DNA of 64,000 nucleotides from Arthrobacter globiformis (GTDB taxonomy: Bacteria; Actinomycetota; Actinomycetes; Actinomycetales; Micrococcaceae), in NCBI RefSeq assembly GCF_003261175.1, contig NZ_QLNP01000064.1:124001-188000 (forward strand). The letters run 5' to 3'. The notes under the pieces are model-generated. The model worked only from the letters and a program-made list of their open reading frames with translations, was not told the origin of the DNA and did not search any database. Of the stretch, positions 42,413 through 56,574 are shown piece by piece; the stretch's first letter is position 1, and the number at the start of each line of letters is the position of its first letter. A program made the position numbers and the translations under genes.

Positions 42413-43378
42413 ATGCCAGAAACCCCGCCCTCCTTGCCCGCGTCCTTCCCCGCCCACACAGCACTCCGGCCAGCGACCCCGGTGGCGCCCCAGACGGGGC
42501 GGCTGCATGATGCTTTCCAGAACCAGCTGGTGCTCAATTACCTGGATCTGGCCGAATCCCTCGCCTCGCGCTTTGCAGCCCGCGGACGGGAGCGCTCAGA
42601 CCTGGTCCAGGTGGCCTATCTGGGGCTCATCAAGGCCGCCCGCGGCTTCGATGAGGAGAAGGGCGAAAGCTTTCCTGCCTACGCGGCGCCCACCATCAGC
42701 GGCGAACTCAAGCGCTTCTTGCGGGACAGGTGTTGGACCGTCCGGCCGCCACGCCGCATCCAGGACGTCCGGACGCAGCTCCTCCACACTGCCCCTGACC
42801 TGGCCCAGTCCCTGGGCCGTGTTCCCTCGGCCCAGGAACTGGCCAGCGAACTGGGCGTCTCACCGGCTGACGTCCGCGAAGCGCAGGCAGCCGGCAGCAG
42901 CATGCATCCCGACTCGCTGGACAGCCCGGATCCCTGGGGCGGGCCGACCATGGGTGAGGGGCTGGTCTCTCCGGACCAGCCGATAGAGCACCTCGAAGAA
43001 CTTGTGTGCCTCCACGAGGCAATCCAGGAGCTGGACCCTGACGATCGGGAGATGCTGTACCGGCGCTACTTCCGCGAGGAGACCCAGGTAGAACTCGGCA
43101 AGCGGTTCGGCATCTCGCAGATGCAGGTGTCCCGGCGGCTGTCCCGGATCCTGGTCTGGCTGCAGCGCCGGCTGCTCGATGAGGAGGACCGGAGCGGGGA
43201 AGGCCGGAGCGGGGACCGGGACGGCGGCAGCGCCCGCAGCGCCAGGGCGGGCGGCGACCGGGCCAGCGCGGATCAGGTCAGCCGGAGCTGCCCCACAGCC
43301 GCCATGACATCTTCCACCGAAACTGCCAGCAGGGCCGGATCAGGGGTGGCCGCAAAGGTGTCGCCGCGGCGCACCTGA
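42413..43378 (+). CDS. SigB/SigF-type RNA polymerase sigma factor
   Basis: A 321-residue group 3 sigma factor. Region 2 is seen in DLVQVAYLGLIKAARGFDEEKG and AAPTISGELKRFLRD, region 3 in RVPSAQELASELGVSPADV and region 4 in REETQVELGKRFGISQMQVSRRLSRIL. Such factors direct general-stress genes. No anti-sigma factor or antagonist gene is adjacent. GAAGGAA precedes the ATG at 42413. The 70-residue tail after region 4 is low-complexity and its last 35 codons overlap the convergent GT9 gene. A TAAG/CTTA palindrome in its promoter region links it to other stress-type genes here. Confidence 0.92.
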   Translation: MPETPPSLPASFPAHTALRPATPVAPQTGRLHDAFQNQLVLNYLDLAESLASRFAARGRERSDLVQVAYLGLIKAARGFDEEKGESFPAYAAPTISGELKRFLRDRCWTVRPPRRIQDVRTQLLHTAPDLAQSLGRVPSAQELASELGVSPADVREAQAAGSSMHPDSLDSPDPWGGPTMGEGLVSPDQPIEHLEELVCLHEAIQELDPDDREMLYRRYFREETQVELGKRFGISQMQVSRRLSRILVWLQRRLLDEEDRSGEGRSGDRDGGSARSARAGGDRASADQVSRSCPTAAMTSSTETASRAGSGVAAKVSPRRT

Positions 43379-44238
43379 GCGTCAGTCAGCACGATGTGCG
43401 GTCCCGGCGGCGGTCCCCAAACCTCGGCCGGGGCCGGACCGAAAAGAACCACCGACGGCCGCGAATACGCTGAGGCGAGGTGCGCGGCGCCGGTGTCTGC
43501 GGACACCACAAGCCGGGACTCGGCGATGGCGGCCATGAATTCGGCCAGCCGCAGCCGCCCCGCCAGGACCTGGCTTTCCGGGAGCCCGGCGAGCCGTGCA
43601 ACATCCAGCGCGCGCGGCCGTTCGGCCGAGCTGCCGGTGAACACTACCCGGTGGCCATCCGCTGAGAGGGCGCGGGCCACCTCGGCAAAGCGGTCCTCGG
43701 GCCACAGCCGGCTGCCGTAGGCGGCCCCCACGTGCAGCACTGTGGCCCCGGGGCAGGGGCTGGGGACGGCCGGCGGAAGGAGCCGGAAATCGTCCGGTTC
43801 TGCCTCGATGCCGTGCCACTGCAGAAGCCTGGTCCAGCGCTCCCGCTCATGGATCTCCTCCAGCCAGGCCGGACCCGGCCGCTCCGGGGTCCGATGGCCG
43901 ACGACGGTCCTGGGCCGGACGGCGGCGAGCCGGGCCTCACTTTCCGGTCCGCTGCCATGCAGGTTCACGGCGATGTCGACCTTGCCTGCCTCGATGGGAA
44001 TCGGAACATCGAGGCCGTGCGTGGGAAGCAGATCGTACCCGCCCACCAGCTCCAGCGCATCTTCCAGCCAGTCTTGGGCCGCATAGAGCAGGCGGTGTTC
44101 CGGATAGGCGCGCCGCAGTGCGCGGAGCGCCGGCACAGCAACCAGCAGGTCGCCGAGCTTCAGTGCCCGCAGAACCAGCAGGACCGGTTGTTCGTGCTTG
44201 CCGTTCGTTGCTTCCACTGCCGTCCTTTTCCTCCCCAT
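43273..44238 (-). CDS. Glycosyltransferase family 9 (heptosyltransferase-like)
   Basis: A 321-residue GT-B enzyme. LRALKLGDLLVAVPALRAL is the GT9 N-terminal motif and VVSADTGAAHLASAYSRPSVVLFGP the C-terminal donor-site motif. GT9 enzymes transfer heptose from ADP-heptose. It is divergent from the coupled heptose operon that starts at 44333. The ATG at 44238 is used because a longer ORF would run into that gene's start. Its 3' end overlaps the sigma factor gene by 106 bp. Confidence 0.88.
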   Translation of the reverse strand: MGRKRTAVEATNGKHEQPVLLVLRALKLGDLLVAVPALRALRRAYPEHRLLYAAQDWLEDALELVGGYDLLPTHGLDVPIPIEAGKVDIAVNLHGSGPESEARLAAVRPRTVVGHRTPERPGPAWLEEIHERERWTRLLQWHGIEAEPDDFRLLPPAVPSPCPGATVLHVGAAYGSRLWPEDRFAEVARALSADGHRVVFTGSSAERPRALDVARLAGLPESQVLAGRLRLAEFMAAIAESRLVVSADTGAAHLASAYSRPSVVLFGPAPAEVWGPPPGPHIVLTDAQVRRGDTFAATPDPALLAVSVEDVMAAVGQLRLT

Positions 44239-44332
44239 GTTGGCTCTGCGGGGCCGCCTGTCGAGGAGTCTAGCCGAGAAGAAGTGAGCGGCCGGTTGTT
44301 TAGGTCTCTGCCGGTCGGGGAACGGAGGGGGT

Positions 44333-44869
44333 ATGGCAACTAACGCTTTGACGCTCAAGGCTGTGCTGTTCGACCGGGACGGGACGCTCGTGGTCGACGT
44401 GCCCTACAACGGTGATCCGCAGAGGGTCGAGCCGTACCCCGGTGCGCGGAGGGTCCTCGACGGACTGCGCAGCCGCGGCGTGGCCACCGGCGTCCTGAGC
44501 AACCAGTCGGGCATTGCCCGCGGCCTCCTGACGGCGGCGGAGGTGGACAGTGTGAACGCGCGGGTGGAGGACCTGCTGGGCCCCTTTGACGTTTGGGAAA
44601 TCTGCCCCCATGGAGCTGGTGACGGCTGCCTGTGCCGGAAACCCGCGCCGGGCATGATTCACAGCGCCTGCCGGCGCCTTGGCATCGATCCGTCGGAGGC
44701 GGCCTTCATCGGCGACATCGGCAGCGACGTCGAGGCGGCCGCAGCCGCCGGCGCACGGGGTGTCCTGGTTCCCACTCCGCAGACCAGAAGCGAAGAAGTC
44801 GAGGCCGCCGCCGAGGTAGCCGCGGACCTCGAGCAGGCCGTTGCGCTGCTGCTTCGCGGACCGGCATGA
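44333..44869 (+). CDS. gmhB: D-glycero-D-manno-heptose 1,7-bisphosphate phosphatase-like HAD
   Basis: A 178-residue HAD-IIIA phosphatase. AVLFDRDGTLV holds the nucleophile Asp, GVLSNQSGIARGLL motif 2, and CPHGAGDGCLCRKPAPGM is the zinc-binding loop that marks GmhB. It would remove the 7... more exactly one phosphate from heptose-1,7-bisphosphate made by the HldE kinase. GGAGGG lies just before the ATG. It is the first gene of a plus-strand run whose members overlap by 4 bp, reaching from here to 50390. Confidence 0.9.
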   Translation: MATNALTLKAVLFDRDGTLVVDVPYNGDPQRVEPYPGARRVLDGLRSRGVATGVLSNQSGIARGLLTAAEVDSVNARVEDLLGPFDVWEICPHGAGDGCLCRKPAPGMIHSACRRLGIDPSEAAFIGDIGSDVEAAAAAGARGVLVPTPQTRSEEVEAAAEVAADLEQAVALLLRGPA

Positions 44870-45942
44870 GCAGGGTCCTCGTGGCCCGGCTGGACAGCGT
44901 CGGTGACGTCCTCCTGGCGGGCCCGGCAGTCCGGGCCGTGGCGAACGGACGGCGGGCCGACGGCGGCAGCCCCAACGACGTCGTCGTGCTTTGCGGACCG
45001 CAGGGCCAGTCGGCGGCCTCACTGCTGCCCAACGTGGCCGACGTCTTTGCCTGGGACACCCCGTGGATCAGCAACCCTGCTCCGGCGGTCACCGGACCGC
45101 ATCTGGACTCGCTGGTGGGCTATGTCCGGAATTCCCGCATCACCGAGGCCGTCATCCTCACCTCCTTTCACCAGTCGCCGCTTCCGCTGGCCCTCCTCCT
45201 GCGGCTGGCCGGTGTGGAGCGCATCACCGGGGCGTCCACCGACTACGCGGGCTCCCTCCTGGACGTCAGGCTGAAACCCGGCGAGGACTTTCCCGAGGAC
45301 CAGCCGGAGTCCGTGCGGGCGCTCCGCATCGCCCGGGCGGCGGGCTTCCAGCTCAGGACGGGTGACGACGGCAAGCTCATGGTCAAGGACCCTCCCGGCA
45401 TCCGGCACCTGGTGGGGGAGGGCCCCTACGTGGTGGTCCACCCGGGGGCAACGGTTCCGGCCCGGGCCTGGCCCCCGCTGCACCATGCGGCTGCCGTGGA
45501 GCTGCTGGAGGGCGCCGGCCACCGGGTGGTGGTGACCGGCGGCCCCGGGGAGACGGCCCTCACCGCAACCGTTGCCGGCCCGTCAGCCATTGACCTGGGC
45601 GGCCGGACGGACCTATCCACACTGGCCGGCGTCCTCGCCAACGCGGACGTCGTGGTCACCGGGAACACGGGTCCCGCCCACCTGGCTGCCGCGGTCGGAA
45701 CCCCGGTCGTGAGCCTGTTTTCCCCGGTTGTGCCGGCCGTGAGGTGGGCGCCGTACGGCGTTCCGCTGGAGCTGCTGGGAGACCAGAACGCGCCGTGCCG
45801 GCTCAGTCGCGCGCGGGACTGTCCGGTACCCGGACACCCCTGCCTCAGCTCGGTTTCGCCGGAGCAGGTGGTGGACGCGGTGGAACGCCTGCTGAGCGGG
45901 GTCTCCTCGCTCAGCACACGGAGAAAGGTCCGGAAACAATGA
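44866..45942 (+). CDS. Glycosyltransferase family 9 (heptosyltransferase-like)
   Basis: A 358-residue GT9 enzyme. VLVARLDSVGDVLLAGPAVRA is the N-terminal signature; VHPGATVPARAWPPLHHAAA and VVTGNTGPAHLAAAVGTPVV the donor-binding parts. CRLSRARDCPVPGHPCL near the end gives a Cys-containing motif common in this subgroup. It probably adds a heptose from a nucleotide-heptose to an unknown acceptor. The ATG overlaps the gmhB stop (ATGA), so a long upstream extension of the ORF is not used. Confidence 0.9.
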   Translation: MSRVLVARLDSVGDVLLAGPAVRAVANGRRADGGSPNDVVVLCGPQGQSAASLLPNVADVFAWDTPWISNPAPAVTGPHLDSLVGYVRNSRITEAVILTSFHQSPLPLALLLRLAGVERITGASTDYAGSLLDVRLKPGEDFPEDQPESVRALRIARAAGFQLRTGDDGKLMVKDPPGIRHLVGEGPYVVVHPGATVPARAWPPLHHAAAVELLEGAGHRVVVTGGPGETALTATVAGPSAIDLGGRTDLSTLAGVLANADVVVTGNTGPAHLAAAVGTPVVSLFSPVVPAVRWAPYGVPLELLGDQNAPCRLSRARDCPVPGHPCLSSVSPEQVVDAVERLLSGVSSLSTRRKVRKQ

Positions 45943-47030
45943 GAATCCTGCTCTGGCACGTGCACGGGTCATGGACGGACGCCTTTGTCCGCGGCCGGCA
46001 CGAGTACCTGCTGCCGGTCCTGCCCGGCGGCGGACCCTGGGGACTGGGCCGGGCGGGCCGGCCCTGGCCTGCTTCCGTGCGGGAGGTCGCGTTCGCGGAA
46101 CTGGACGCTGGCAGCATAGACGCCGTCGTGCTTCAGCGTCCGGAGGAAGCCGAGGAGGTGACGCGCGTCCTGGGCCGCAGGGCCGGCGTGGACCTTCCCG
46201 CCGTGTACGTGGAACACAACACCCCCAAGGGTGACGTTCCCTCTACCGTCCATCCGCTCGGGGACCAGAACCGCATCCCGATCGTCCACGTGACCCATTT
46301 CAACGAGCTGTTCTGGGACAGCGGCCGCGCACCGACCAGGGTCATCGAGCATGGCATCGCGGACCCCGGCTACCTTTACACCGGCGGGGTCCCGGAGCTG
46401 GGCGTAGTAGTCAACGAACCGGTGCGCCGCGGCCGGGTGACCGGCACGGACCTGCTCCCGCGCTTCGCCACCGCAGCCCCGCTCCGGGTCTTCGGCATGG
46501 GCGGCGACGGGCTGGCGCAGGCTACGGGAATCCCTTCGGCGCAGCTCACCGTCCGGGGCGATCTGAAAACCGCAGAGCTGCACCATGAACTGGCGCGCTG
46601 CCGGGCATACCTGCACCCGCTGCGCTGGACCTCCCTAGGGCTGGCGCTGCTGGAGGCGATGCACCTCGGCATGCCGGTCCTGGCGCTGGCCACCACCGAG
46701 GCGGCACGGGCCGTCCCGCCTGAGGCAGGCTGCATCTCCACTGACGTGGAGGAGCTGCGCCGGTGTGCCCGGCAGCTGGTCAACGATCCGGAGGAGGCCC
46801 GGCGACGGGGCAAAGTTGCCCGGGAGGCGGCGCTGGAGCGTTATGGGCTGGACCGTTTCCTGGCCGACTGGGACGAGCTGCTGGCGGACCTGGTGCCGGC
46901 CGGCCGCGGAGGGAAAGTTCAGGGGGAGGGGCGGCTGGAGCCTTTGGAGGGGGCGCCATCCGGCGATGCAGCTCTGAAGGGGTCCGGACCGGATGCCCTC
47001 ACCGCGGCGCGAGAAGGGAATATCCATTGA
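45939..47030 (+). CDS. Glycosyltransferase (GT-B, GT4-like)
   Basis: A 363-residue protein starting MRILLWHVHGSWTDAFVRG. VYVEHNTPKGDVPSTVHPL and the later LRWTSLGLALLEAMHLGMPVLAL (E-x7-type donor site of GT4/GT1) place it among retaining GT-B glycosyltransferases, though it is divergent. The tail of about 30 residues is low-complexity. Its ATG overlaps the previous stop by 4 bp, and the next gene starts at a TTG overlapping its own stop. The sugar and acceptor are unknown. Confidence 0.85.
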   Translation: MRILLWHVHGSWTDAFVRGRHEYLLPVLPGGGPWGLGRAGRPWPASVREVAFAELDAGSIDAVVLQRPEEAEEVTRVLGRRAGVDLPAVYVEHNTPKGDVPSTVHPLGDQNRIPIVHVTHFNELFWDSGRAPTRVIEHGIADPGYLYTGGVPELGVVVNEPVRRGRVTGTDLLPRFATAAPLRVFGMGGDGLAQATGIPSAQLTVRGDLKTAELHHELARCRAYLHPLRWTSLGLALLEAMHLGMPVLALATTEAARAVPPEAGCISTDVEELRRCARQLVNDPEEARRRGKVAREAALERYGLDRFLADWDELLADLVPAGRGGKVQGEGRLEPLEGAPSGDAALKGSGPDALTAAREGNIH

Positions 47031-48280
47031 AGATCTCAATGATTTCGGAACACGCCAGCCCCTTGGCAGCGCTTGGCGGAGTGGATGCCGGCGGCCAGAA
47101 CGTCCACGTGGCGGCCCTTTCGTCGGCGCTGGCCCGTCGGGGCCATCGGGTAACGGTCTACACGAGGCGTGACTCGCCCGATTTGCCCACGAGGGTGCGG
47201 GTGCAACCCCGGCTCGAGGTGGTGCACGTGGACGCCGGGCCGGCCGAACACGTGCCCAAGGATGAACTGCTGCCCTTCATGGGCGCCCTGGCGGACGGAG
47301 TGGTCCAGGACTGGGGCGACTCGCCGCCGCACGTGGTGCACAGCCACTTCTGGATGTCCGGCGTCGCCGCGCTGGACGCTGCACGCCGTGATTCTGGCGG
47401 CTTCCGGGTGCCCGTGGTCCAGACCTTCCACGCCTTGGGCACGGTCAAGCGCCGCCATCAGGGCGCCGCCGACACGAGCCCGGCCGAGCGGCGTTTCCTT
47501 GAACCGTCCGTGGGCCGGTCAGCCGACCGGATCGTGGCCACGTGTTCTGACGAGGTTTTCGAACTGCGGGCAATGGGAATTGATACGCGCAGGGTTTCCA
47601 TCGCCCCCTGCGGGGTGGATCTGGACCTCTTCTCCAGTGACGGGCTGGCCGACCGTCCCTCCCGCTCCCACCGCATCCTGTCCGTGGGCCGACTGGTCCC
47701 GCGCAAGGGCATGGACCTGGTGATCCGCGCGCTGCCGTATCTGCTGCAGGCGGGTTTCGACGACGTCGAGCTGCTCATTGTGGGCGGCGACGCGGACACG
47801 GGCGGGCAGGATCCGGAGGCGCGCAGGCTGCTGGACCTTGCCCGGGACCTCGGCGTGGCGGACCATGTTGAGCTCCGGGGCCAGGTGGCCCGGGAGGCCA
47901 TGCCCGGAATCTTCCGGAGTGCGGACGCTGTGGTCTGCACTCCTTGGTACGAGCCCTTCGGCATTGTTCCCCTTGAGGCCATGGCCTGCGGTGTTCCGGT
48001 GGTCGCCGCTGCGGTGGGAGGCCTGACAGACAGCGTGGTCGACCGGGGGACCGGCCTGCATGTGCCACCGAAGGATCCCGAAGCCATCGCAGAGGCCGTC
48101 GGCACCCTGCTGGCCAACCCCGAACTCAGGGCCAAGCTCGGGCGGGCCGGCGAGCGGCGGGCGAAGGCCCGCTACTCCTGGAGCAGGGTCGCCGCCGAAA
48201 CCGAAAAGGCCTACCAGCTGGCCATCGCCGGCACTGCGGACGCGGGCCGGCTGGAACCGATGGAAGGAGCGGCACTGTGA
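47027..48280 (+). CDS. Glycosyltransferase family 4
   Basis: A 417-residue GT-B enzyme related to MshA/sucrose-phosphate-synthase-like GT4. SPLAALGGVDAGGQNVHVAAL is the acceptor-side N-terminal motif, ILSVGRLVPRKGMDLVIRAL the hinge, and EPFGIVPLEAMACGVPVVAA the EX7E donor motif. The TTG at 47027 is the likely start: GAAGGGA lies 8 bases before it and it overlaps the previous stop as TTGA, matching the coupling seen throughout the operon. It probably uses a UDP- or GDP-sugar. Confidence 0.9.
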   Translation: MKISMISEHASPLAALGGVDAGGQNVHVAALSSALARRGHRVTVYTRRDSPDLPTRVRVQPRLEVVHVDAGPAEHVPKDELLPFMGALADGVVQDWGDSPPHVVHSHFWMSGVAALDAARRDSGGFRVPVVQTFHALGTVKRRHQGAADTSPAERRFLEPSVGRSADRIVATCSDEVFELRAMGIDTRRVSIAPCGVDLDLFSSDGLADRPSRSHRILSVGRLVPRKGMDLVIRALPYLLQAGFDDVELLIVGGDADTGGQDPEARRLLDLARDLGVADHVELRGQVAREAMPGIFRSADAVVCTPWYEPFGIVPLEAMACGVPVVAAAVGGLTDSVVDRGTGLHVPPKDPEAIAEAVGTLLANPELRAKLGRAGERRAKARYSWSRVAAETEKAYQLAIAGTADAGRLEPMEGAAL

Positions 48281-49017
48281 CTGCGGAATCCCTGCGGGAG
48301 GCTGAGCTTCCTGCCATGCACCGGGTTGGCACACCGGGTTTTCCCTCTCCGGACGGGGTCTCCTCCCCGGAAGAGGCCGGGCACGACGGCGCCCCGCACG
48401 ACGCCAGTCCGGCCGCGCGCGAGGCAGTGCGGACACACCTGGAAAACGTCCTGCCCGCCCTGCGGTCCCTGGAAAGCCAGGCAGACAGGCTGGCCGACTG
48501 GGGCGTGGAGCTGGCCCAGCGCCTGCTGAGCGGGCAGAAACTGCTTGCCGCCGGAAACGGCGGCTCCGCCGCCGAGGCGCAGCACCTGACCGCGGAACTT
48601 GTGGGCAGGTTCGACGGCGAGCGGATGCCTTTTTCCGCGATCTCCCTGCACGCGGAAAGTTCCGCCGTCACGGCGATTGCCAATGACTACGGCTACGAAG
48701 AGCTCTTCGCCCGGCAGGTCCGCGCCCACGGCCGGTCGGGGGACATCCTCGTACTGCTGTCCACGAGCGGCCAGAGCCCCAACCTGCTCCGTGCAGCAGA
48801 GGCGGCATCCAGGCTGAACGTGACCACGTGGGCCCTGACCGGGCCGGCGCCCAACCCGCTGGCATCCTGTTGCGATGATGCCGTGGCCATTGATGCGATC
48901 TCGGCCAACGCCCAGGAGGGGCACCTGATTGCGCTGCACGCCATTTGCCGGGCCTTCGAAGCCGAGGTGGTCCGCAAGGGCCAGGGTGTTCCTGGGCCGG
49001 GGGCTGATCGCCGGTGA
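48277..49017 (+). CDS. gmhA: D-sedoheptulose-7-phosphate isomerase
   Basis: A 246-residue SIS-domain isomerase. AAGNGGSAAEAQHLTAELVG holds the substrate loop and catalytic Glu, LLSTSGQSPNLLRA the phosphate loop, and AQEGHLIALHAIC the conserved His. It converts sedoheptulose-7-phosphate to D-glycero-D-manno-heptose-7-phosphate, the first step of heptose synthesis. There is an N-terminal extension of about 45 residues relative to E. coli GmhA. It starts with a GTG overlapping the previous stop (GTGA). A degenerate paralog lies at 26844. Confidence 0.92.
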   Translation: MTAESLREAELPAMHRVGTPGFPSPDGVSSPEEAGHDGAPHDASPAAREAVRTHLENVLPALRSLESQADRLADWGVELAQRLLSGQKLLAAGNGGSAAEAQHLTAELVGRFDGERMPFSAISLHAESSAVTAIANDYGYEELFARQVRAHGRSGDILVLLSTSGQSPNLLRAAEAASRLNVTTWALTGPAPNPLASCCDDAVAIDAISANAQEGHLIALHAICRAFEAEVVRKGQGVPGPGADRR

Positions 49018-50390
49018 GGATCACAGTGGTTGGCGACGTTTTGCTGGACGTGGACCTTTCCGGCGAGGCAACCCGGCTGTGCCCTGACGCGCCGGTCCCG
49101 GTGGTGGACGTCTCCGACGTCCGGCGGCGGGCCGGCGGTGCCGGACTCGTGGCCAGGATGCTGGCCCGTGACGGCCACCGCGTCACTCTCGTGACAGTGC
49201 TTTCCGACGACGACGCCTCCCTTGAGCTGGAAGGCGCCCTCGCCGGGGTACACGTCGTCTCCGGGCCTTCCGGTGCCAGGACCCCGGTAAAGACCCGGGT
49301 CCGGGCGGGTCGCCAGCCGGTGGTGCGGGTGGATGAGGGATGCGGGCGGCCGGAGGTGCCGGCGGCGACGGCGGGCATGCTCAGGGCCCTGGAGCGCGCC
49401 GAAGCGATTGTGGTGGCCGATTATGGTCGGGGTGTTGCCGCGAACCAGGAGATTCGCGACCTCCTCGCCGCCCGTGCCGGCGACATTCCGATCGTGTGGG
49501 ATCCGCACCCCTCCGGCGCCGCACCCGTGCCCGGGGTGGCCGTAGTGACCCCGAACTTGTCCGAGGCTGCCAAGGCCGCAGGTTCCGGCACCGTGGATTC
49601 GGGAGCCGGAACGCCCGCGGCGGTTGCCGCCGTCGGCCAAACGCTGCTGGACCGCTGGCAAAGCCAGGCGGTCCTCGTGACCATGGGCGAGCAGGGCGGC
49701 ACTTTGTCCCAGCGCGACACTTCGCCTCTGGCCATTCCGGCCCCTGCCACCGAAGTGACTGATCCCTGCGGCGCCGGCGACCGGCTCGCGGCAAGCCTGG
49801 CCGTACACCTCGCGGAGGGCCGCAGCCTCAGCGACGCGGCGGAACTCGCGATCAACGAGGCGGCAGCTTTCCTCGGCGCCGGCGGAGTGGCCTCCCTGCC
49901 CGACCGCCACCGGCCGGTCTGGCACCACAGCCGCGAGGAAGACGCCCTGGACCTTGCCCGGCGGGTGCGCGCCAACGGAGGAACGGTCGTGGCCACGGGA
50001 GGCTGCTTCGACCTCCTGCACGCCGGCCACGCCCGCACGCTGGCGGCTGCCAGGGACCTGGGCGACTGCCTGATCGTGTGCCTGAACTCTGACGAATCGG
50101 TGCGCCGGATCAAAGGTGAGCAGCGGCCCATTGTGAGCCAGCAGGACCGAGCCGAGCTCCTTCTGGCACTCGAGTGCGTTGACGCCGTCCTGGTCTTCGG
50201 GGAGGACACCCCGGAGGCCTGCCTGGAAACGTTGCGGCCGGACGTCTGGGTAAAGGGCGGCGACTACCGCGCGTCGGAGCTGCCCGAAGCAGGGCTGGTC
50301 GAGAGCTGGGGAGGGCGCTGCATGACGGTCCCCTTCCACCAGGCCCGGTCCACGTCCGTCCTCGCGGACGCCCTGGCGAAGGTCAGCTGA
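49014..50390 (+). CDS. HldE-like heptose-phosphate kinase/nucleotidyltransferase (copy 1)
   Basis: A 458-residue fusion of a PfkB kinase (about 1-300, with DVLLDVDLSGEATRLCPDAP and DPCGAGDRLAAS carrying the catalytic Asp) and a cytidylyltransferase-type domain (about 320-458, ATGGCFDLLHAGHARTL and VKGGDYRASEL). It should make heptose-1,7-bisphosphate and then ADP-heptose. The kinase site is unusual: the sugar-binding PGGAANVA of HldE is RAGGAGLVA here. It is coupled to gmhA by a 4-bp overlap. A second, more canonical copy lies at 54005. Confidence 0.88.
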   Translation: MRITVVGDVLLDVDLSGEATRLCPDAPVPVVDVSDVRRRAGGAGLVARMLARDGHRVTLVTVLSDDDASLELEGALAGVHVVSGPSGARTPVKTRVRAGRQPVVRVDEGCGRPEVPAATAGMLRALERAEAIVVADYGRGVAANQEIRDLLAARAGDIPIVWDPHPSGAAPVPGVAVVTPNLSEAAKAAGSGTVDSGAGTPAAVAAVGQTLLDRWQSQAVLVTMGEQGGTLSQRDTSPLAIPAPATEVTDPCGAGDRLAASLAVHLAEGRSLSDAAELAINEAAAFLGAGGVASLPDRHRPVWHHSREEDALDLARRVRANGGTVVATGGCFDLLHAGHARTLAAARDLGDCLIVCLNSDESVRRIKGEQRPIVSQQDRAELLLALECVDAVLVFGEDTPEACLETLRPDVWVKGGDYRASELPEAGLVESWGGRCMTVPFHQARSTSVLADALAKVS

Positions 50391-50434
50391 CCTGCATACC
50401 AAAACTTGAACTAGTCCCAAGCGAAAGGAACACC

Positions 50435-51136
50435 ATGACTGAATCGACTTTCAAGCCCGGCCGGGTGCTGGTAACAGGCGGTGCCTCCGGTCTGGGGGCC
50501 GCCGTCGTCGATGCCGTACTGAAAGCTGGCGGAACGCCGGTGGTGCTGGACCGGGACATCCGGAACGTGTCCGCGGTGAAGGCCTTTGAAGTGGACGTCT
50601 CGGACCGCATCGCCGTGACCGAGGCGGTGCAGCAGGCCGCGGAAACCCTGGACGGGCTAGACGCCGTGGTCACCGCGGCGGGCATCGACAGGTGCGGCAA
50701 GCTGGAGGACGTGGCCGCGGACGAGTGGGAACGCGTCATCGGGGTCAACCTGATGGGCACAGTGTCCGTTGTCCGGGCGGCGCTTCCGTATCTGAAGGAG
50801 TCCCGGGGGCGGGTGGTCACCATTGCGTCCACGTTGGGCAAGCGGGCATCGCCGGAGGCCACCGCCTATTGCGCCTCAAAATTTGGAGTAGTGGGCTTCA
50901 GCCATTCGCTGGCGGCTGAGACGGGCGGTCAGATCGGCGTGACCACCATGATTCCCGGCGGAATGAAGACCCGCTTCTTTGATGACCGGGCCGAGCAGTA
51001 CAAGCCGCAGGACGACTCACGCCTGAACGACCCCGGCAACGTGGCACAGGCGATTTTGTTCGCGCTGTCTCAGCCCACCGGCTGCGAGGTCCGTGAAATG
51101 CTTATCTGCCACGAAGAAGAGGGGTCGTGGCCGTGA
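50435..51136 (+). CDS. SDR-family oxidoreductase in the heptose cluster
   Basis: A 233-residue classical SDR with VLVTGGASGLGAAVVDA, VVTAAGIDRCG in place of NNAG, a catalytic Ser in VVTIASTLGKR and YCASK. AAAGGA precedes the ATG, 44 bp after the HldE-like gene. HldD-type heptose epimerases are extended SDRs of about 310-330 residues, so this is not a normal HldD; it may oxidise or reduce a heptose or the acceptor. Its 3' end overlaps the convergent GT9 gene by 35 bp. Confidence 0.87.
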   Translation: MTESTFKPGRVLVTGGASGLGAAVVDAVLKAGGTPVVLDRDIRNVSAVKAFEVDVSDRIAVTEAVQQAAETLDGLDAVVTAAGIDRCGKLEDVAADEWERVIGVNLMGTVSVVRAALPYLKESRGRVVTIASTLGKRASPEATAYCASKFGVVGFSHSLAAETGGQIGVTTMIPGGMKTRFFDDRAEQYKPQDDSRLNDPGNVAQAILFALSQPTGCEVREMLICHEEEGSWP

Positions 51137-52295
51137 GCTGGAGCACGTCCTCGTAGACCTCGGCGGGTTCGACGGCCTTCACGGTGGACTCGTCATGAGG
51201 ACACCGTGGGGCCGTCCATCCGACCTGCGTCATATCCACGCCACACACCTCGCAGCGCGTGGCCCAGCCCAGCTGGACCCGGTGCAGGCTGCGCCCCAGC
51301 GGGGCGGCATTGATGGCGTTGCCTGTCCAGTAGATGCCCACAGTTGGTGTGCCCAGGGCCTGGGCCAGGTGGCGGGGTCCGCTGTCGTTGGCCAGCACGA
51401 CGTCGCTGCCCGCGAGCAGTGCCGCGAGCTCGCCCAGGCTGAGCTTGCCGGCGAGTGACTCTACGGCCGGGCGGGCAGCGTTGGACCGGTCGGTGCGGGT
51501 ATTTTCGACGGCGAGTTCCACCACCGTTTCGGCCAGTTCCTTTTCACTGCTGTCGCCGACCACAAGAACCCGGAAGCCGTCGTCGGCGGCTTTCCGCGCC
51601 ACCGCGGCGAATCGTTCGGCGGGCCAGCGCCGGCGCGGATCCGTCGCGCCCGGATGGATCACGAGTGTCGGGTGGTCTCCGGGCCCGCCGTTCCCCAAGG
51701 GCAGGTCCTGCGCGAGCTGCTGGCCGAACTCCGGCAGCGCTTGGAGTCTGGCTTCGAGCTCGCGGGGAGGGGCACCGGCAAATCCTGCCACCTCGAGGGC
51801 CCGGAGCGGTTCGTGCTGGTAGTACAGGTACGGCACGGTACGCTCCAGCGGAGCCGCATCCGGGGTCCTGGTGCCCACGGTGTGCCGGGCTCCGAGCCGG
51901 AGCAGGAAGGGATTTGAGTAGCGCCCGCCGCCGTGCAGTTGGACGGCGAGGTCGAAGTTCCTGACGCGCATTTCGGTGAAGAACTTTTCCAGTTCCTCGT
52001 CGTCCTCCGGTCCTGGGCGGACACCTTCGGAAAAAGGCAGGATGACGGTCTCATCCACAGGTCCCATGGTCTGGGACAGCAGCTCAGCATGAATTGGCGT
52101 GCCCAGCAGGGTGACGCTGGCGTCCGGATAAGCGGCCTTTAGGGCTGCCACCGCCGGGAGGGCGAACATCAGGTCGCCCAGCCCGCCGCCACGGAGAACA
52201 GCGATACGGGAGACGCCGCTGAAGGGTTCCAAGACCGGGCCGATTCCGTGCCCTGTGATGCGTGCTCCGCCGAAGTCGGCGTTGAAGAGTTCCAT
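51102..52295 (-). CDS. Glycosyltransferase family 9 (heptosyltransferase-like)
   Basis: A 397-residue GT9 enzyme, the third in the cluster. VLRGGGLGDLMFALPAVAALKA is the N-terminal motif, VIHPGATDPRRRWPAERFA and VVLANDSGPRHLAQALGTPTVGIYW the donor-binding region. A C-terminal CEVCGVDMTQVGWTAPRCPHDE segment has three Cys and a His that could bind zinc. It is transcribed against the main operon and overlaps the SDR gene by 35 bp. Confidence 0.9.
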   Translation of the reverse strand: MELFNADFGGARITGHGIGPVLEPFSGVSRIAVLRGGGLGDLMFALPAVAALKAAYPDASVTLLGTPIHAELLSQTMGPVDETVILPFSEGVRPGPEDDEELEKFFTEMRVRNFDLAVQLHGGGRYSNPFLLRLGARHTVGTRTPDAAPLERTVPYLYYQHEPLRALEVAGFAGAPPRELEARLQALPEFGQQLAQDLPLGNGGPGDHPTLVIHPGATDPRRRWPAERFAAVARKAADDGFRVLVVGDSSEKELAETVVELAVENTRTDRSNAARPAVESLAGKLSLGELAALLAGSDVVLANDSGPRHLAQALGTPTVGIYWTGNAINAAPLGRSLHRVQLGWATRCEVCGVDMTQVGWTAPRCPHDESTVKAVEPAEVYEDVLQLTATTPLLRGR

Positions 52296-52390
52296 GGTGT
52301 CAGCCCTCTCGGCTCCGGATCGTTGGTCGGGATGCGTTCAGGTCGGGATCGGATCAGTGGGGCCAACCCTACGGTGCATCGGGCCTGTTT

Positions 52391-52481
52391 TGCCAGCTCG
52401 GAAAACCCGGCATGCCAGCTCAGTCATGCCCGCCCTGCCAGCTCGGTAAGACCCGGCCTGCCGGCCCAGAAAACTCCTGCC
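52391..52481 (+). repeat. Four ~23-bp tandem direct repeats
   Basis: TGCCAGCTCGG-type units begin at 52391, 52413, 52436 and 52459 (spacing 22, 23, 23). The consensus is TGCCAGCTCRG followed by AAAACCCGGCC-like bases; the last unit is more degenerate. They lie in the gap between the divergent GT9 and aldehyde dehydrogenase genes, about 100 bp upstream of the latter. The TGCCAG(C/T)TCG core also occurs in the hairpin at 61575-61633. Confidence 0.7.
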
Positions 52482-52580
52482 GGAGGCGCGTGTAAACCGC
52501 CCGGCGCCGGGGTACGGATCACCGCAGAGAGGGCGGGAACGGACGCCCGGCAGGCACAGGCCAACCCAGTGAGGAGCCAC

Positions 52581-54008
52581 ATGCAATCCACCATCACCAG
52601 CGAGCTGGCGAATGAGGAAGACACGCTCACCATCCTGAACCCGCGCACCGGGGAAACCGTCGGCAGCCTTTCCGTCGCGGGGGCAGATGATGTGGCAGGA
52701 GCCGTGGCGGCGGCCCGCGATGCCCAACCCGGCTGGGGTGCCACGCCTCCCGGGGAGCGGGGCCGGCTGCTGCGCGAGGCCGCCCAGGCGCTGGAGGCGG
52801 CGGCTGCCGGACTTGCGGATCTCAACGCCCAGGAGACCGGCCGTCCGGTGGAGGAGGCACTTGCCGGTATTGCCGCCGGTGTTTCCACGTTGGAGCAGTA
52901 TGCGGAGCTAGGTCCTGTACACCGCGGTCACAGTCTTCGCGGCAACGTGCTCGCAGCGGACTACACCGTGGCGGAGCCGCGCGGCGTGGCCGTGCTCCTG
53001 ACGCCGTGGAACGATCCCGTCGCCGTGGCCTGCGGGCTCATAGGGGCCGCTTTGGTTACCGGAAACACCGCCATTCACAAACCGAGCGAGCGCTGCCCCC
53101 ACCTGGGAGAGCTGTTGGAGGAGGCGCTGGCGCCGGTATTTCCGCCCAACGTGCTGGTCACGCTGACCGGAGGGGCCGACGTCGGGACCCTCCTCACGCA
53201 GCAGTCTGACGTTGATATGTTCGCCCACGTCGGGTCCAGCGAGACTGGTGTCCGGATTGCGAAGGCGGCCGTGCTGACGGGCGCCTACGTCATCAGGGAA
53301 AACGGCGGGAATGATCCGCTGCTGGTGGACGCGGACGTGGATCCCGGCTGGGCCGCGGAGCAGGCGGCGATCGGAGCCTTCAGCAACAGCGGGCAGATCT
53401 GCACGTCGGTGGAGCGGATCTACGTCCACCGGTCCATCGCCGAACCGTTCTGCGAGGCGCTCGCCGGACAGGCGCGGGAGCGGAACACCGAACGCCCGCT
53501 CGCGCCGCTCGTGGATACCCGGATGCGGGACGCGGTACACCGGCACGTGGCGGAGGCGCTGCAGCTGGGTGCCCGGGCCGTGGAGGGCGGGACGGTACCT
53601 GACGGGCCAGGCGCCTTCTACCCGGCCACGGTTCTCGTGGACTGCACCGACACCATGGATGTCATGGCCGAGGAAACGTTCGGCCCTGTCGCTCCGGTGC
53701 GTGTGGTGGACAGCTTCGAGGAAGGGCTAACGCTCGCCGCGGCCGGCCGGTACGGACTTGCCGCCACGGTCCTGACTGGCAGCATCGCCCACGCCCAGCA
53801 GGCCGTCGCTTCGTTGCCGGTGGGGACCGTCAAGGTCAACGGGGTGTTCGGGGGCGCGCCCGGCGGGGCCGCCCAGCCCCGGGGCGAAAGCGGGCACGGG
53901 TTTGGTTATGGTCCGGAACTGCTGGACGAATTCACACGCGTCAAGGTGGTGCACATCGCTGCGCCGCCTTCGCCGGCGGATCAGGAAACCAGCGGGGCGG
54001 CGTCATGA
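52581..54008 (+). CDS. Aldehyde dehydrogenase family protein
   Basis: A 475-residue NAD(P)-dependent aldehyde dehydrogenase. NPRTGETVG starts the fold, TPWNDPVAVACG and HKPSERCP match the cofactor-binding region, the general base Glu is in VIRENGGNDPLLVDAD (unusual for ELGGKNP) and the nucleophile Cys in SNSGQICTSVERIYV. GAGGAG fixes the ATG at 52581. It overlaps the second hldE by 4 bp, so its substrate may belong to the heptose or glycan pathway rather than general catabolism; that link is inferred from context only. Confidence 0.9.
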   Translation: MQSTITSELANEEDTLTILNPRTGETVGSLSVAGADDVAGAVAAARDAQPGWGATPPGERGRLLREAAQALEAAAAGLADLNAQETGRPVEEALAGIAAGVSTLEQYAELGPVHRGHSLRGNVLAADYTVAEPRGVAVLLTPWNDPVAVACGLIGAALVTGNTAIHKPSERCPHLGELLEEALAPVFPPNVLVTLTGGADVGTLLTQQSDVDMFAHVGSSETGVRIAKAAVLTGAYVIRENGGNDPLLVDADVDPGWAAEQAAIGAFSNSGQICTSVERIYVHRSIAEPFCEALAGQARERNTERPLAPLVDTRMRDAVHRHVAEALQLGARAVEGGTVPDGPGAFYPATVLVDCTDTMDVMAEETFGPVAPVRVVDSFEEGLTLAAAGRYGLAATVLTGSIAHAQQAVASLPVGTVKVNGVFGGAPGGAAQPRGESGHGFGYGPELLDEFTRVKVVHIAAPPSPADQETSGAAS

Positions 54009-55522
54009 CCGCCGAACCGGTGCTTTCGGAGCAACGAGGCCTTGCGGCGTGGCTTCCCCGGAGGTTGGCCCAGGAGCATCCTGCCGTCACCGTCGTGGGC
54101 GACTTCATGCTCGACGGCTGGTGGACCGGCACGATCGACAGGATGTGCCGCGAGGCCCCGGCACCCGTGGTGGACATCGCCCGGCGTGACTTTGCCCCCG
54201 GCGGTGCCGCCAACACCGCCATGAACCTGGCCGCACTCGGCGCCCGTGTCAGTGTGGCAGGAATCATCGGAGCGGACGACGCCGGCGCGGAACTTCGGCG
54301 CCAACTGGTCGCCGCAGGGGTGGACACCACGCTGCTCACCGAACACCCGGACATGGCCACCCCCACCAAGATCCGGATCAGCAGCGGCGGTCAGGTCCTC
54401 CTGCGCCTCGACGACACCGCGGCAACTGTCCCGACCGACGCCCTGGCGGCGTTCGAGGCGGCGGTTCCTGCCGCCGTCGGACGCCAGAACGCGGTGGTGA
54501 TCTGTGACTACGGAACGGGCGTCCTTGCGGAACCGGTCCGCGGCCGGCTCATCGAATCCCTGTCCGGGCGCGGGCAAGACACGCTTGTGGTGGTGGACGC
54601 GCACGATCCGCGACCGTGGGCCGGACTTGAGCCGGACCTGGTCACGCCCAACGCGCAGGAGGCCGCCCGGATGCTTGACCTCCGGCTGGGCAGCGGGCCC
54701 GAGCGCGCGGCGGTGGTGACCGAGCACGCCGGCGAGCTGCTGCAGGCGACCGGAGCACGCGCCGTCGTGGTCACGCTGGACCGGGACGGGACCGTCCTCA
54801 TTCCAGCCGCCGGAAACCCGCACCGGACGTGGGCACGGCCTGCCACCGAGAAGCAGGCCTCCGGAGCAGGCGATACATTCGTGGCTGCCCTGACCCTGGC
54901 GCGTGCGGCGTCGCTGCCGCTGACGGCCAGCCTGGACCTGGCACAGGCCGCCGCGGACGTGGTGGTCCACCATCCCGGGACGTCGGTGTGCGGCACGGAC
55001 GAGCTGGGCCGGTACCTGGAAAGCTTCGGCGACGCCGCCCTGGCGGCAGACGAACTGGAGCGGCACATCCGCGCCCACCGCAACGACGGCCAGCGCGTGG
55101 TGCTGACCAACGGCTGTTTCGACGTCCTGCACCGCGGGCACACCCGTTACCTGAACCAGGCCAAGCAGCTCGGCGACATCCTGGTGGTGGCGCTCAACAG
55201 TGACGACTCCGTCCGGAAGCTCAAGGGGCCGGGCCGTCCCATCAACAGCGTGGCGGACAGGGCGGCCGTGATCGCCGCCCTGAGCTGCGTGGACTACGTG
55301 ACCGTCTTCGACACCCCGACGCCCATTCCCCTGATCGAACAGCTGCGTCCGGAAATCTACGCCAAGGGCGGGGACTACACGCCGGAGATGCTGGCCGAAA
55401 CCGAGGCCGTGGAGGGGTACGGGGGCACAGTCACCATCCTCGACTATGTGGCAGAGCGTTCCACCACGGCGATGGTCCAGCGTATCCGCAACGGCGAGGG
55501 CGCCCCTGTCCCGGAGGGGTAA
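54005..55522 (+). CDS. hldE: Bifunctional heptose-7-phosphate kinase/heptose-1-phosphate nucleotidyltransferase (copy 2)
   Basis: A 505-residue HldE. The kinase domain (about 25-340) has VVGDFMLDGWWTGTIDRMCREAPAPV-type motifs, the canonical PGGAANTAMNLAALG and QASGAGDTFVAAL with the catalytic Asp. The nucleotidyltransferase domain (about 365-500) has NGCFDVLHRGHTRYL and AKGGDYTPEML. It makes ADP-D-glycero-beta-D-manno-heptose in the E. coli pathway. The ATG overlaps the aldehyde dehydrogenase stop (ATGA). A terminator hairpin follows at 55532. It is closer to canonical HldE than copy 1. Confidence 0.92.
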   Translation: MTAEPVLSEQRGLAAWLPRRLAQEHPAVTVVGDFMLDGWWTGTIDRMCREAPAPVVDIARRDFAPGGAANTAMNLAALGARVSVAGIIGADDAGAELRRQLVAAGVDTTLLTEHPDMATPTKIRISSGGQVLLRLDDTAATVPTDALAAFEAAVPAAVGRQNAVVICDYGTGVLAEPVRGRLIESLSGRGQDTLVVVDAHDPRPWAGLEPDLVTPNAQEAARMLDLRLGSGPERAAVVTEHAGELLQATGARAVVVTLDRDGTVLIPAAGNPHRTWARPATEKQASGAGDTFVAALTLARAASLPLTASLDLAQAAADVVVHHPGTSVCGTDELGRYLESFGDAALAADELERHIRAHRNDGQRVVLTNGCFDVLHRGHTRYLNQAKQLGDILVVALNSDDSVRKLKGPGRPINSVADRAAVIAALSCVDYVTVFDTPTPIPLIEQLRPEIYAKGGDYTPEMLAETEAVEGYGGTVTILDYVAERSTTAMVQRIRNGEGAPVPEG

Positions 55523-55629: not shown

Positions 55630-56574
55630 ATGGGACGGCGCACCAAGTCAGGGGGGAAGCCGGGTTCCCCCGCGGGCAGCAAAACAGGCGGCAGAAGAGG
55701 CACAGCAGCGGCCTCCGACGTACTGGAAGTCGCCAAGGGAGTGCGTGCAGGCGGGCCCGTCGAGGGCGTCTACTACATCGACACTGGCGACTGCGAGCTC
55801 ATCGCCGACCAGGACAACTCCACGGGCTGGCTCCTGCGCATCAACGGCGTGATGAGTTCCCACATAGACCTTGCCGATCCGCTGTTCCTCGACTTCGAGT
55901 ACATGCGCTGGATGTCCGCCCTCATCGAATCCCGCTGGCAGCCTGAGACCAAGCCCAGGCTGCGGGGTCTGCACCTGGGCGGCGGAGCGTGCTCGCTGGC
56001 CCGCTACTTCCACGCGGCCTACCCGGACGCCCGCCAGGTGGTGGTGGAGCTGGACGGAAAGCTCGCCGAGTACGTCCGCGGCTGGTTCGACCTGCCCAAG
56101 GCCCCGCTGCTGCGGCTTCGCGTCGGCGAGGCCCGCGCTGTGACCGAGACCCTCACCCCGGACACCCGCGACTTCATCATCCGGGACGTCTTCGCCGGCG
56201 CGGTGACCCCGGTTGCGCTGACCACGGCCGAATTCAACGAACATGTCCGCCGGGTGCTCGCCCCCGGCGGAATTTACGTGGTCAATTCTGGCGACGGTCC
56301 GGACCTGAAGAATGCCCGGGAGGACGCGGCCACCATCGCGGCCGCCTTCGAACACACCATCATCATCGCGGACCCCGCCATGCTGAAGGGGCGCCGCTAC
56401 GGCAACATGGTGATGGCCGGCAGCGACCAGCCGTTCGACGACGATCCGCAGCTCGCGCGGCGGCTCCTGGGCGGGGCGGTGCCCGCGCACATCTGGGACG
56501 ACGCGAAGGTGCGGGCCTTCGCCGCCGGAGCCCAGGTGCGCCACGACCCTGCGCCGCCAGCGGCTGCTGAGTAA
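55630..56574 (+). CDS. Spermidine synthase-like SAM-binding protein
   Basis: A 314-residue protein with a Rossmann-type SAM fold: LRGLHLGGGACSLARYFHAAYPD is the SAM loop, QVVVELDGKLAEYVRGWFDLP the second strand and FIIRDVFAGAVTP the acidic loop region of spermidine synthases. Key polyamine-binding Asp pairs are not obvious, so it may be a methyltransferase-like relative, as is common for actinobacterial homologues. The first 40 residues are basic and disordered. The ATG at 55630 follows GGCGGAG; the ORF opens 10 codons earlier. Confidence 0.82.
   Translation: MGRRTKSGGKPGSPAGSKTGGRRGTAAASDVLEVAKGVRAGGPVEGVYYIDTGDCELIADQDNSTGWLLRINGVMSSHIDLADPLFLDFEYMRWMSALIESRWQPETKPRLRGLHLGGGACSLARYFHAAYPDARQVVVELDGKLAEYVRGWFDLPKAPLLRLRVGEARAVTETLTPDTRDFIIRDVFAGAVTPVALTTAEFNEHVRRVLAPGGIYVVNSGDGPDLKNAREDAATIAAAFEHTIIIADPAMLKGRRYGNMVMAGSDQPFDDDPQLARRLLGGAVPAHIWDDAKVRAFAAGAQVRHDPAPPAAAE

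Follow-up and report, generated by a model that had tools for sequence, protein, structure and literature searches.

A predicted nucleotide-heptose and glycan-assembly cluster in Arthrobacter globiformis, related in gene content and order to the Streptomyces cwg locus

Why would a soil actinobacterium that has no lipopolysaccharide (LPS) carry genes for activated heptose beside glycosyltransferases of the heptosyltransferase family? The question is raised by a cluster at positions 43273–55522 of a 64,000-nt stretch of Arthrobacter globiformis DNA (the window, by which we mean the whole stretch). Its 11 proteins are GmhA, GmhB, two copies of HldE, three GT9 and two GT4 glycosyltransferases, a short-chain dehydrogenase (SDR), and an aldehyde dehydrogenase (ALDH). 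Judged from sequence, the cluster probably specifies a nucleoside diphosphate–heptose (NDP-heptose) pathway joined to non-LPS glycan-assembly machinery that is likely to be linked to stress. By shared gene content and order, its core can be classed as the Micrococcaceae form of the cwg locus of Streptomyces.

Family profiles found every enzyme named by a first-pass annotation of the window (GmhA, GmhB, two HldE-type proteins, and three GT9 proteins) at the place it had given, and Pfam matches did the same for its two further glycosyltransferases, SDR, and aldehyde dehydrogenase. GT9A (43273–44238, minus strand, alternative start at 44217; PF01075, 82.3 bits against a cut-off of 22) is divergent from a plus-strand series made up of GmhB (44333–44869), GT9B (44866–45942; PF01075, 82.2 bits), GT4a, the GT4 glycosyltransferase typical of the locus (45939–47030; PF00534, 38.2 bits), GT4b (47027–48280, TTG start), GmhA (48277–49017), HldE1 (49014–50390), and the SDR (50435–51136; PF00106, 145 bits). 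Next come GT9C on the minus strand (51102–52295; PF01075, 97 bits) and, on the plus strand, ALDH (52581–54008; PF00171, 352 bits) and HldE2 (54005–55522). The coordinates give six exact 4-bp overlaps (GmhB/GT9B, GT9B/GT4a, GT4a/GT4b, GT4b/GmhA, GmhA/HldE1, and ALDH/HldE2), in agreement with the earlier remark that most of the genes are coupled in this way; in relatives, the GmhA/HldE1 overlap is kept in 41 of 51 loci and the GmhB/GT9B overlap in 39 of 48. Because gene order and 4-bp overlaps recur in distant genomes, the cluster is more than a chance association. Minus-strand open reading frames overlying GmhB had no family match, and the three cluster proteins are the only GT9 matches genome-wide at an E-value of 0.001.

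The heptose-supply enzymes retain the motifs of their families. GmhB is predicted to be a HAD-IIIA heptose bisphosphate 7-phosphatase, of the β-anomer type by relative score (111.4 bits with the β profile NF006506, cut-off 178, versus 51.9 bits with the α profile NF050049, cut-off 250, both being below cut-off), and when aligned to the solved heptose bisphosphatases 4pnh and 3l8h it shows DRDGTL and the zinc motif CPH..CLCRKP. GmhA, the predicted sedoheptulose-7-phosphate isomerase, scores 158.8 bits with PRK13936 (cut-off 276), and alignment to solved GmhA finds GNGGSAAEAQH..AE, STSGQSPN, and QEGHLIALH intact; strict patterns for the three motifs match 45, 51, and 43 of 52 family members, respectively. 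Both HldE proteins, putative heptose-7-phosphate kinases/heptose-1-phosphate nucleotidyltransferases, align in their two domains with the solved structures of a heptose kinase (4e84) and a nucleotidyltransferase (5x9q). Their nucleotidyltransferase domains exceed the curated cut-off of TIGR02199 (HldE1, 183.5 bits; HldE2, 195.2 bits), and their scores fall short with the kinase profile TIGR02198 (178.6 and 215.2 bits; cut-off 345) and the whole-length profile NF008454 (310 and 367 bits; cut-off 521). The kinase motif GAGD and the nucleotidyltransferase motif HxGH occur in both window copies. GAGD is kept in 53/53 HldE1 and 35/35 HldE2 sequences, and the strict pattern FDxLHxGH in 50/53 and 30/35; HxGH is retained in the six that were inspected among the eight misses. 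According to the accessible text of two papers, an arginine at the fifth position of (F/L)XXGRSTT marks nucleotide-promiscuous heptose nucleotidyltransferases of the STTR5 type (PMC11573728, PMC11461863). This arginine is present in both window proteins (FHQARSTS and YVAERSTT), neither of which matches the strict motif, and it is found in 43 of 53 HldE1 but only 9 of 35 HldE2 sequences.

The first-pass annotation had also taken the organism to be free of LPS, and the genome bears this out, with zero matches to LpxC; 4 of 14 control genomes match. The best genome match to HldD reaches 88.6 bits against a cut-off of 274.6, and the SDR of the cluster was ruled out as an HldD, being a classical short-chain dehydrogenase. 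With no HldD above cut-off, the expected product is a D,D- rather than an L,D-heptose.

How far does this arrangement extend? The synteny survey across the Micrococcaceae that the annotation had called for was run and found the core order GmhB-GT9B-GT4a-GT4b-GmhA-HldE1 complete in 33 of 37 loci. In the same-family sample of 149 genomes, the HldE nucleotidyltransferase domain is above cut-off in 35, and strong copies (>120 bits, counted by eye) number two in 34 genomes and one in 9; the 37 loci come from 28 of the 34 two-HldE genomes and all 9 one-HldE genomes. Three of the four incomplete loci are cut by the end of the stretch (L049, L070, and L072) and the fourth, L065, is decayed: its HldE1 frame spans 213 aa, with no GmhA, GmhB, or GT9B detected, which suggests loss. 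All 28 two-HldE loci hold GmhA, HldE1, SDR, and HldE2, with GT4a and GT4b in 27, ALDH and GT9C in 26, and GmhB and GT9B in 25. Seventeen genomes of other families contributed 20 loci: the core order is present in 10 (one of them, L120, with a gap), the core genes are rearranged in 6, mostly by displacement of GT4a, and the second module of the cluster stands without the core in 4.

A sample of the class (296 genomes, 114 genera) was screened with E-value thresholds of 1e-30 for HldE, 1e-20 for GT4a, and 1e-8 for GT9. HldE was found in 70 genomes, GT4a in 72, GT9 in 79, and all three in 67; at these thresholds, three HldE genomes are without GT4a and five GT4a genomes without HldE. The core genes co-occur in about one quarter of the class genomes and in 38–39 of the 114 genera; Fisher p values for these co-occurrences take no account of relatedness. 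In 53 of the 58 genomes having both, the distance from GT4a to a NodU-type carbamoyltransferase gene is at most 12 kb, a count that takes in one genome (G364) whose neighbor is a partial second GT4a match. We also scanned named genomes with a GT4a alignment (A1), and the best 80 of 582 confirmed places, ranked by likeness to one sequence, lie in Streptomyces, Planobispora, Microbispora, Nonomuraea, Micromonospora, Nocardiopsis, Geodermatophilus, Blastococcus, Modestobacter, and others. Fifty-nine of these 80 span at least 20 kb (the 21 shorter ones were left out, and 30 of the 59 layouts were inspected), and they include GmhA in 57, HldE1 in 57, GmhB in 56, GT9B in 57, and GT4b in 58; in the layouts from Streptosporangiaceae, GT4a and GmhB are on the opposite strand. 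This breadth of occurrence rules out an island unique to the Arthrobacter strain. The central proposal of the annotation, that an actinobacterium free of LPS has a pathway to nucleotide-heptose, is thus supported at the level of families, motifs, and the missing LpxC, with the correction that the locus is neither peculiar to the strain nor unexplored, being widespread and related to cwg. NDP-heptose synthesis in actinobacteria was reportedly already in the literature with Tang et al. 2022.

What is known of cwg gives the locus its closest described relative. In the accessible parts of the published accounts, the cwg ("cell wall glycan") operon of S. coelicolor comprises 12 genes, SCO6179–6190 (PMC5839063, PMC6767563), of which SCO6186 is annotated as a phosphoheptose isomerase and SCO6187 as a bifunctional synthase/transferase (PMC5839063); the operon is induced by vancomycin, partly dependent on sigma-E, and predicted to specify a cell wall glycan (PMC6767563). 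Eight of the 12 Streptomyces layouts listed run epimerase, carbamoyltransferase, GT2, GmhB, GT9B, GT4a, GT4b, GmhA, HldE, GT9, GT2, GT2, and SCO6186 and SCO6187 fit the positions of GmhA and HldE in a comparison made by published annotation rather than by S. coelicolor sequence. The window has GmhB-GT9B-GT4a-GT4b-GmhA-HldE contiguous and in the order of the Streptomyces loci. It differs in being without carbamoyltransferase, close epimerase, and GT2 genes, in adding HldE2-GT9C-ALDH, in having GT9A divergent from GmhB, and in that the search pattern applied detects no sigma-E-like promoter. The published sigma-E promoter of cwg was recovered upstream of the first gene in four of eight Streptomyces loci, with 24–28 of 29 bases matching. 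In one locus (L162), a divergent polysaccharide deacetylase (PF01522) occupies the place of SCO6178, described in the available text as a putative deacetylase beside cwg (PMC6767563). The 467-kb linear Streptomyces plasmid p65_CHABEC (L124) carries a complete cwg-type cluster flanked by ANTAR, STAS, PP2C, CsbD, and sigma-factor genes. A text search of the cwg literature, as far as its text was accessible, met no word beginning "heptose", and a literature search over titles and the starts of abstracts met no named heptose product of the locus, a result that falls short of proof since subscription journals lay mostly outside it.

Several observations weigh against the account given so far. GmhA, GmhB, the HldE kinase domains, and whole-length HldE all lie below their curated equivalog cut-offs. 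The carbamoyltransferase is absent from the genome both by a profile that matches 85 other genomes and by protein search, and genome matches to the cwg epimerase are weak (best, 30% identity and 45.6 bits); with neither a carbamoyltransferase nor a close epimerase, the window cluster should make a glycan unlike the Streptomyces one. The other four of the eight Streptomyces loci yielded no copy of the published cwg promoter, the best match in them having 19 of 29 bases and lying elsewhere. A sigma-E-like promoter was seen upstream of GmhB in 0 of 33 Micrococcaceae loci with a strict, insensitive pattern (in the named loci it matched ahead of the first gene in only 2 of 52), and a SigB/F-like promoter in 0 of 49 loci. 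GT9B has an asparagine where the solved LPS heptosyltransferases WaaC and WaaF carry an aspartate, so that its donor may differ. Finally, a simple scale finds a hydrophobic segment in none of the 11 cluster proteins, among which there is no flippase, exporter, or membrane protein, so that either export is encoded elsewhere or the product is intracellular, and an envelope glycan is not favored by this.

The glycosyltransferases refine the picture. All three GT9 proteins contain a PF01075 domain above cut-off, and a GD within the first 80 residues is found in 34/45 GT9A, 51/51 GT9B, and 31/31 GT9C members. At the first position of the donor motif D-[S/T]-G-xx-H, GT9A and GT9C have aspartate and GT9B asparagine. 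The DTG form is present in 40 of 45 GT9A members, the remaining 5 having no motif match, and the asparagine in 50 of 51 GT9B members, the last having no motif match. Both Burkholderiaceae counterparts checked share the asparagine. The asparagine marks GT9B as an old subfamily, with a donor that may be different. GT9C ends in a CxxC...CxH tail whose cysteines (C348, C351, and C365) are invariant in 14 aligned sequences. GT4b belongs to the branch of MshA and sucrose-phosphate synthase (TIGR03449, the MshA profile, 266 bits, below its cut-off of 462.5), and its nearest solved chains are 6kih (Tll1590; 213 bits) and 3c4q (189 bits), which we take to be a sucrose-phosphate synthase and MshA, respectively, both with small, soluble acceptors. 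This kinship suggests a starter that is either lipid-linked or a small phosphorylated molecule, be it a polyol or a sugar.

HldE2, GT9C, and ALDH set the Micrococcaceae form apart. HldE1 and HldE2 are 37% identical, about as far apart as HldE2 and E. coli HldE (36%). In a tree of 26 of the 53 HldE1 sequences, 18 of the 35 HldE2 sequences, and E. coli HldE, HldE1 forms one clade with support of 100/100 and HldE2 another with 96/94; E. coli HldE sits on a long branch that leaves the root unsure. The two supported clades reject a recent duplication, and on this phylogeny the two HldE lineages separated long ago. Wherever HldE2 and GT9C are both present (30 loci), opposite strands encode them, and 5 of the 35 HldE2 loci have no GT9C match. 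In three loci from other families (L109, L115, and L119), the HldE2/GT9C pair occurs in the stretch without the core, and L109 (6475–9376) has transketolase and SDR genes beside HldE2, the transketolase two genes away; as a source of sedoheptulose 7-phosphate, a transketolase fits the proposed route. The window cluster looks like a merger of two modules, each with its own copy of HldE.

In the pathway that we propose, sedoheptulose 7-phosphate would be converted to NDP-heptose, which would stay in the D,D form without HldD. GT4a, GT4b, GT9A, and GT9B would build a heptose-containing oligosaccharide on some acceptor, and HldE2-GT9C would act as a second, separately inherited module of supply plus transfer, perhaps adding a second heptose. 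The likeliest use would be an envelope glycan made under stress, a placement in the envelope that is drawn from the regulation of cwg in another genus, S. coelicolor.

The product might instead be a soluble, cytosolic heptosyl-oligosaccharide directed against osmotic or drying stress rather than an envelope polymer, which we consider unlikely, though not to be dismissed. The want of hydrophobic segments in the cluster proteins speaks for it, as does the nearness of GT4b to Tll1590 and 3c4q, taken as enzymes that use small, soluble acceptors, and stress genes flank the cluster on the Streptomyces plasmid and, among the Burkholderiaceae, in some of the loci. Two points tell the other way: the acceptors most familiar for GT9 enzymes are lipids or proteins, and queries with stress genes against the best 80 of 582 named loci found hemerythrin in two, DUF2795 in two, and CsbD and Mn-catalase in none. 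In the portions of the reports available, salt activates cwgA in S. coelicolor (PMC13011467) and a Frankia gene annotated as an ADP-heptose:LPS heptosyltransferase (PMC5563000), an induction that fits an envelope or a soluble product alike, but cwg is also described as a vancomycin-induced target of sigma-E in cell-envelope stress (PMC6767563), which favors the envelope.

That the GT9 enzymes heptosylate proteins in the manner of TibC is quite improbable. The conserved cysteine tail of GT9C would suit it, but a similar tail is present in the Burkholderiaceae GT9 proteins of alignment A2, and among solved chains at an E-value of 0.01 the GT9C profile finds LPS heptosyltransferases (1psw at 2e-27) and none of the autotransporter type, although TibC structures are presumably in the Protein Data Bank. 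No conserved secreted target gene was noticed, in the course of work that included no systematic search for one. Heptose-dependent protein glycosylation is known in E. coli, according to the accessible text of PMC11461863. Equally to be weighed is whether the HldE enzymes work on a different sugar phosphate and the cluster makes no heptose; the kinase-domain and whole-length scores given above point that way, but the nucleotidyltransferase domains exceed their cut-off, GmhA, GmhB, and GT9 stand in the same gene string as HldE or beside it, and the Burkholderiaceae loci described below miss exactly GmhA and HldE, which together make this highly improbable. We see very little chance that the cluster makes a specialized metabolite resembling septacidin or hygromycin B, with heptoses derived from sedoheptulose 7-phosphate. 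A Tang 2018 study is said to be cited in the literature on Streptomyces heptose antibiotics, and such antibiotics are known in that genus from the part of the source available (PMC11461863). Unlike most antibiotic clusters, however, the core genes occur together across the class at the frequency reported above, and no scaffold, export, or resistance genes were found among the cluster genes. An NDP-heptose pathway feeding a non-LPS glycan remains the reading that we prefer.

Distant relatives of GT4a in the Burkholderiaceae suggest which genes of the cluster serve supply and which assembly. They were found on ten records, of which eight were read (L123, L126, and L209–L214), and the clusters sit on secondary replicons. 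All eight hold GT4a, GT4b-like, GT9B-like, and GT9C-like genes, with likeness to the window proteins of 42–45% for GT4b, 37–40% for GT4a, and 37–41% for GmhB (seven of eight loci). They also have a carbamoyltransferase (7/8), a PIG-L deacetylase (7/8), and a gene resembling UDP-glucuronate decarboxylase (8/8). Within the stretches read, GmhA and HldE were undetected in all eight. Burkholderiaceae make LPS and hence already have heptose, so that the lack of GmhA and HldE from these loci is as expected if LPS metabolism supplies it. Most simply, the assembly module would depend on activated heptose, and hosts without LPS would bring the supply genes along with it.

From these comparisons a wider picture can be sketched, which we hold tentatively and think somewhat more apt to fail than to stand. 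About one quarter of Actinomycetes would make a non-LPS D,D-heptose glycan that is the cwg product, with an assembly module shared with Burkholderiaceae and passing between LPS-bearing and LPS-free bacteria, the supply genes accompanying it in LPS-free hosts alone. Micrococcaceae would use GT9C to attach a second heptose, activated by HldE2 and perhaps linked to a different nucleotide, in place of the carbamoyl decoration. Three genomes (G163, G234, and G288) have two HldE copies together with a carbamoyltransferase, so the two decorations are not strictly exclusive, and some genomes of the Streptosporangiaceae type seem to have both the second heptose and the carbamoyl decoration. The proposal gives a testable chemical identity, heptose, to a cwg product so far described, in the accessible literature, as a predicted cell wall glycan. 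If it is true, activated heptose would have a use outside LPS in a large fraction of actinobacteria as well, and its role in them under stress would become a question.

Several neighboring genes deserve mention. A SigB/SigF-type sigma factor (42413–43378, plus strand; Pfam sigma70 regions 2, 3, and 4) is convergent with GT9A, overlapping its 3′ end by about 100 bp, and a relative is found in 18 of the 28 two-HldE Micrococcaceae loci, some of which are cut by stretch ends; this is an association only. As a candidate SigB/F promoter, GTTT-N12-17-GGGTAT was sought and is not in the window. Immediately after HldE2 lies a spermidine-synthase-like gene (55630–56574), which among 57 loci takes this HldE2-adjacent spot only in two of the same genus (L042 and L053); a GT2 gene family stands at roughly its place in many other two-HldE loci. 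DUF2795 genes are near the cluster in 9 of 28 two-HldE loci (L067, 4524–5609, and eight others) and in 2 of the 8 Burkholderiaceae loci, and in others of the Burkholderiaceae loci genes for Mn-catalase, hemerythrin, or CsbD are close by. Enrichment in stress genes was set aside as a lead only, matches being few outside Burkholderiaceae and the counts being without a random control.

Two further known systems frame the cluster. With the LPS inner-core pathway (GmhA, HldE, GmhB, HldD, and WaaC/F), it shares the supply enzymes and the GT9 family, and it differs in a genome without LpxC and without HldD above cut-off and in its GT4 partners. Tridomain NDP-heptose synthetases of actinobacteria have been described in the accessible text of two reports (PMC11573728, PMC11461863), and the same isomerase, kinase, and nucleotidyltransferase activities are predicted for the window, where GmhA and HldE1 are separate genes that overlap by 4 bp; fused GmhA-HldE1 frames in two distant loci (L114, 4212–6554, 780 aa; L122, 4773–7022, 749 aa) resemble the tridomain enzymes. 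Set beside these systems and cwg, the cluster is, on its sequence relationships, a variant of a widespread and partly described kind, and the earlier interpretation of it was right in direction.

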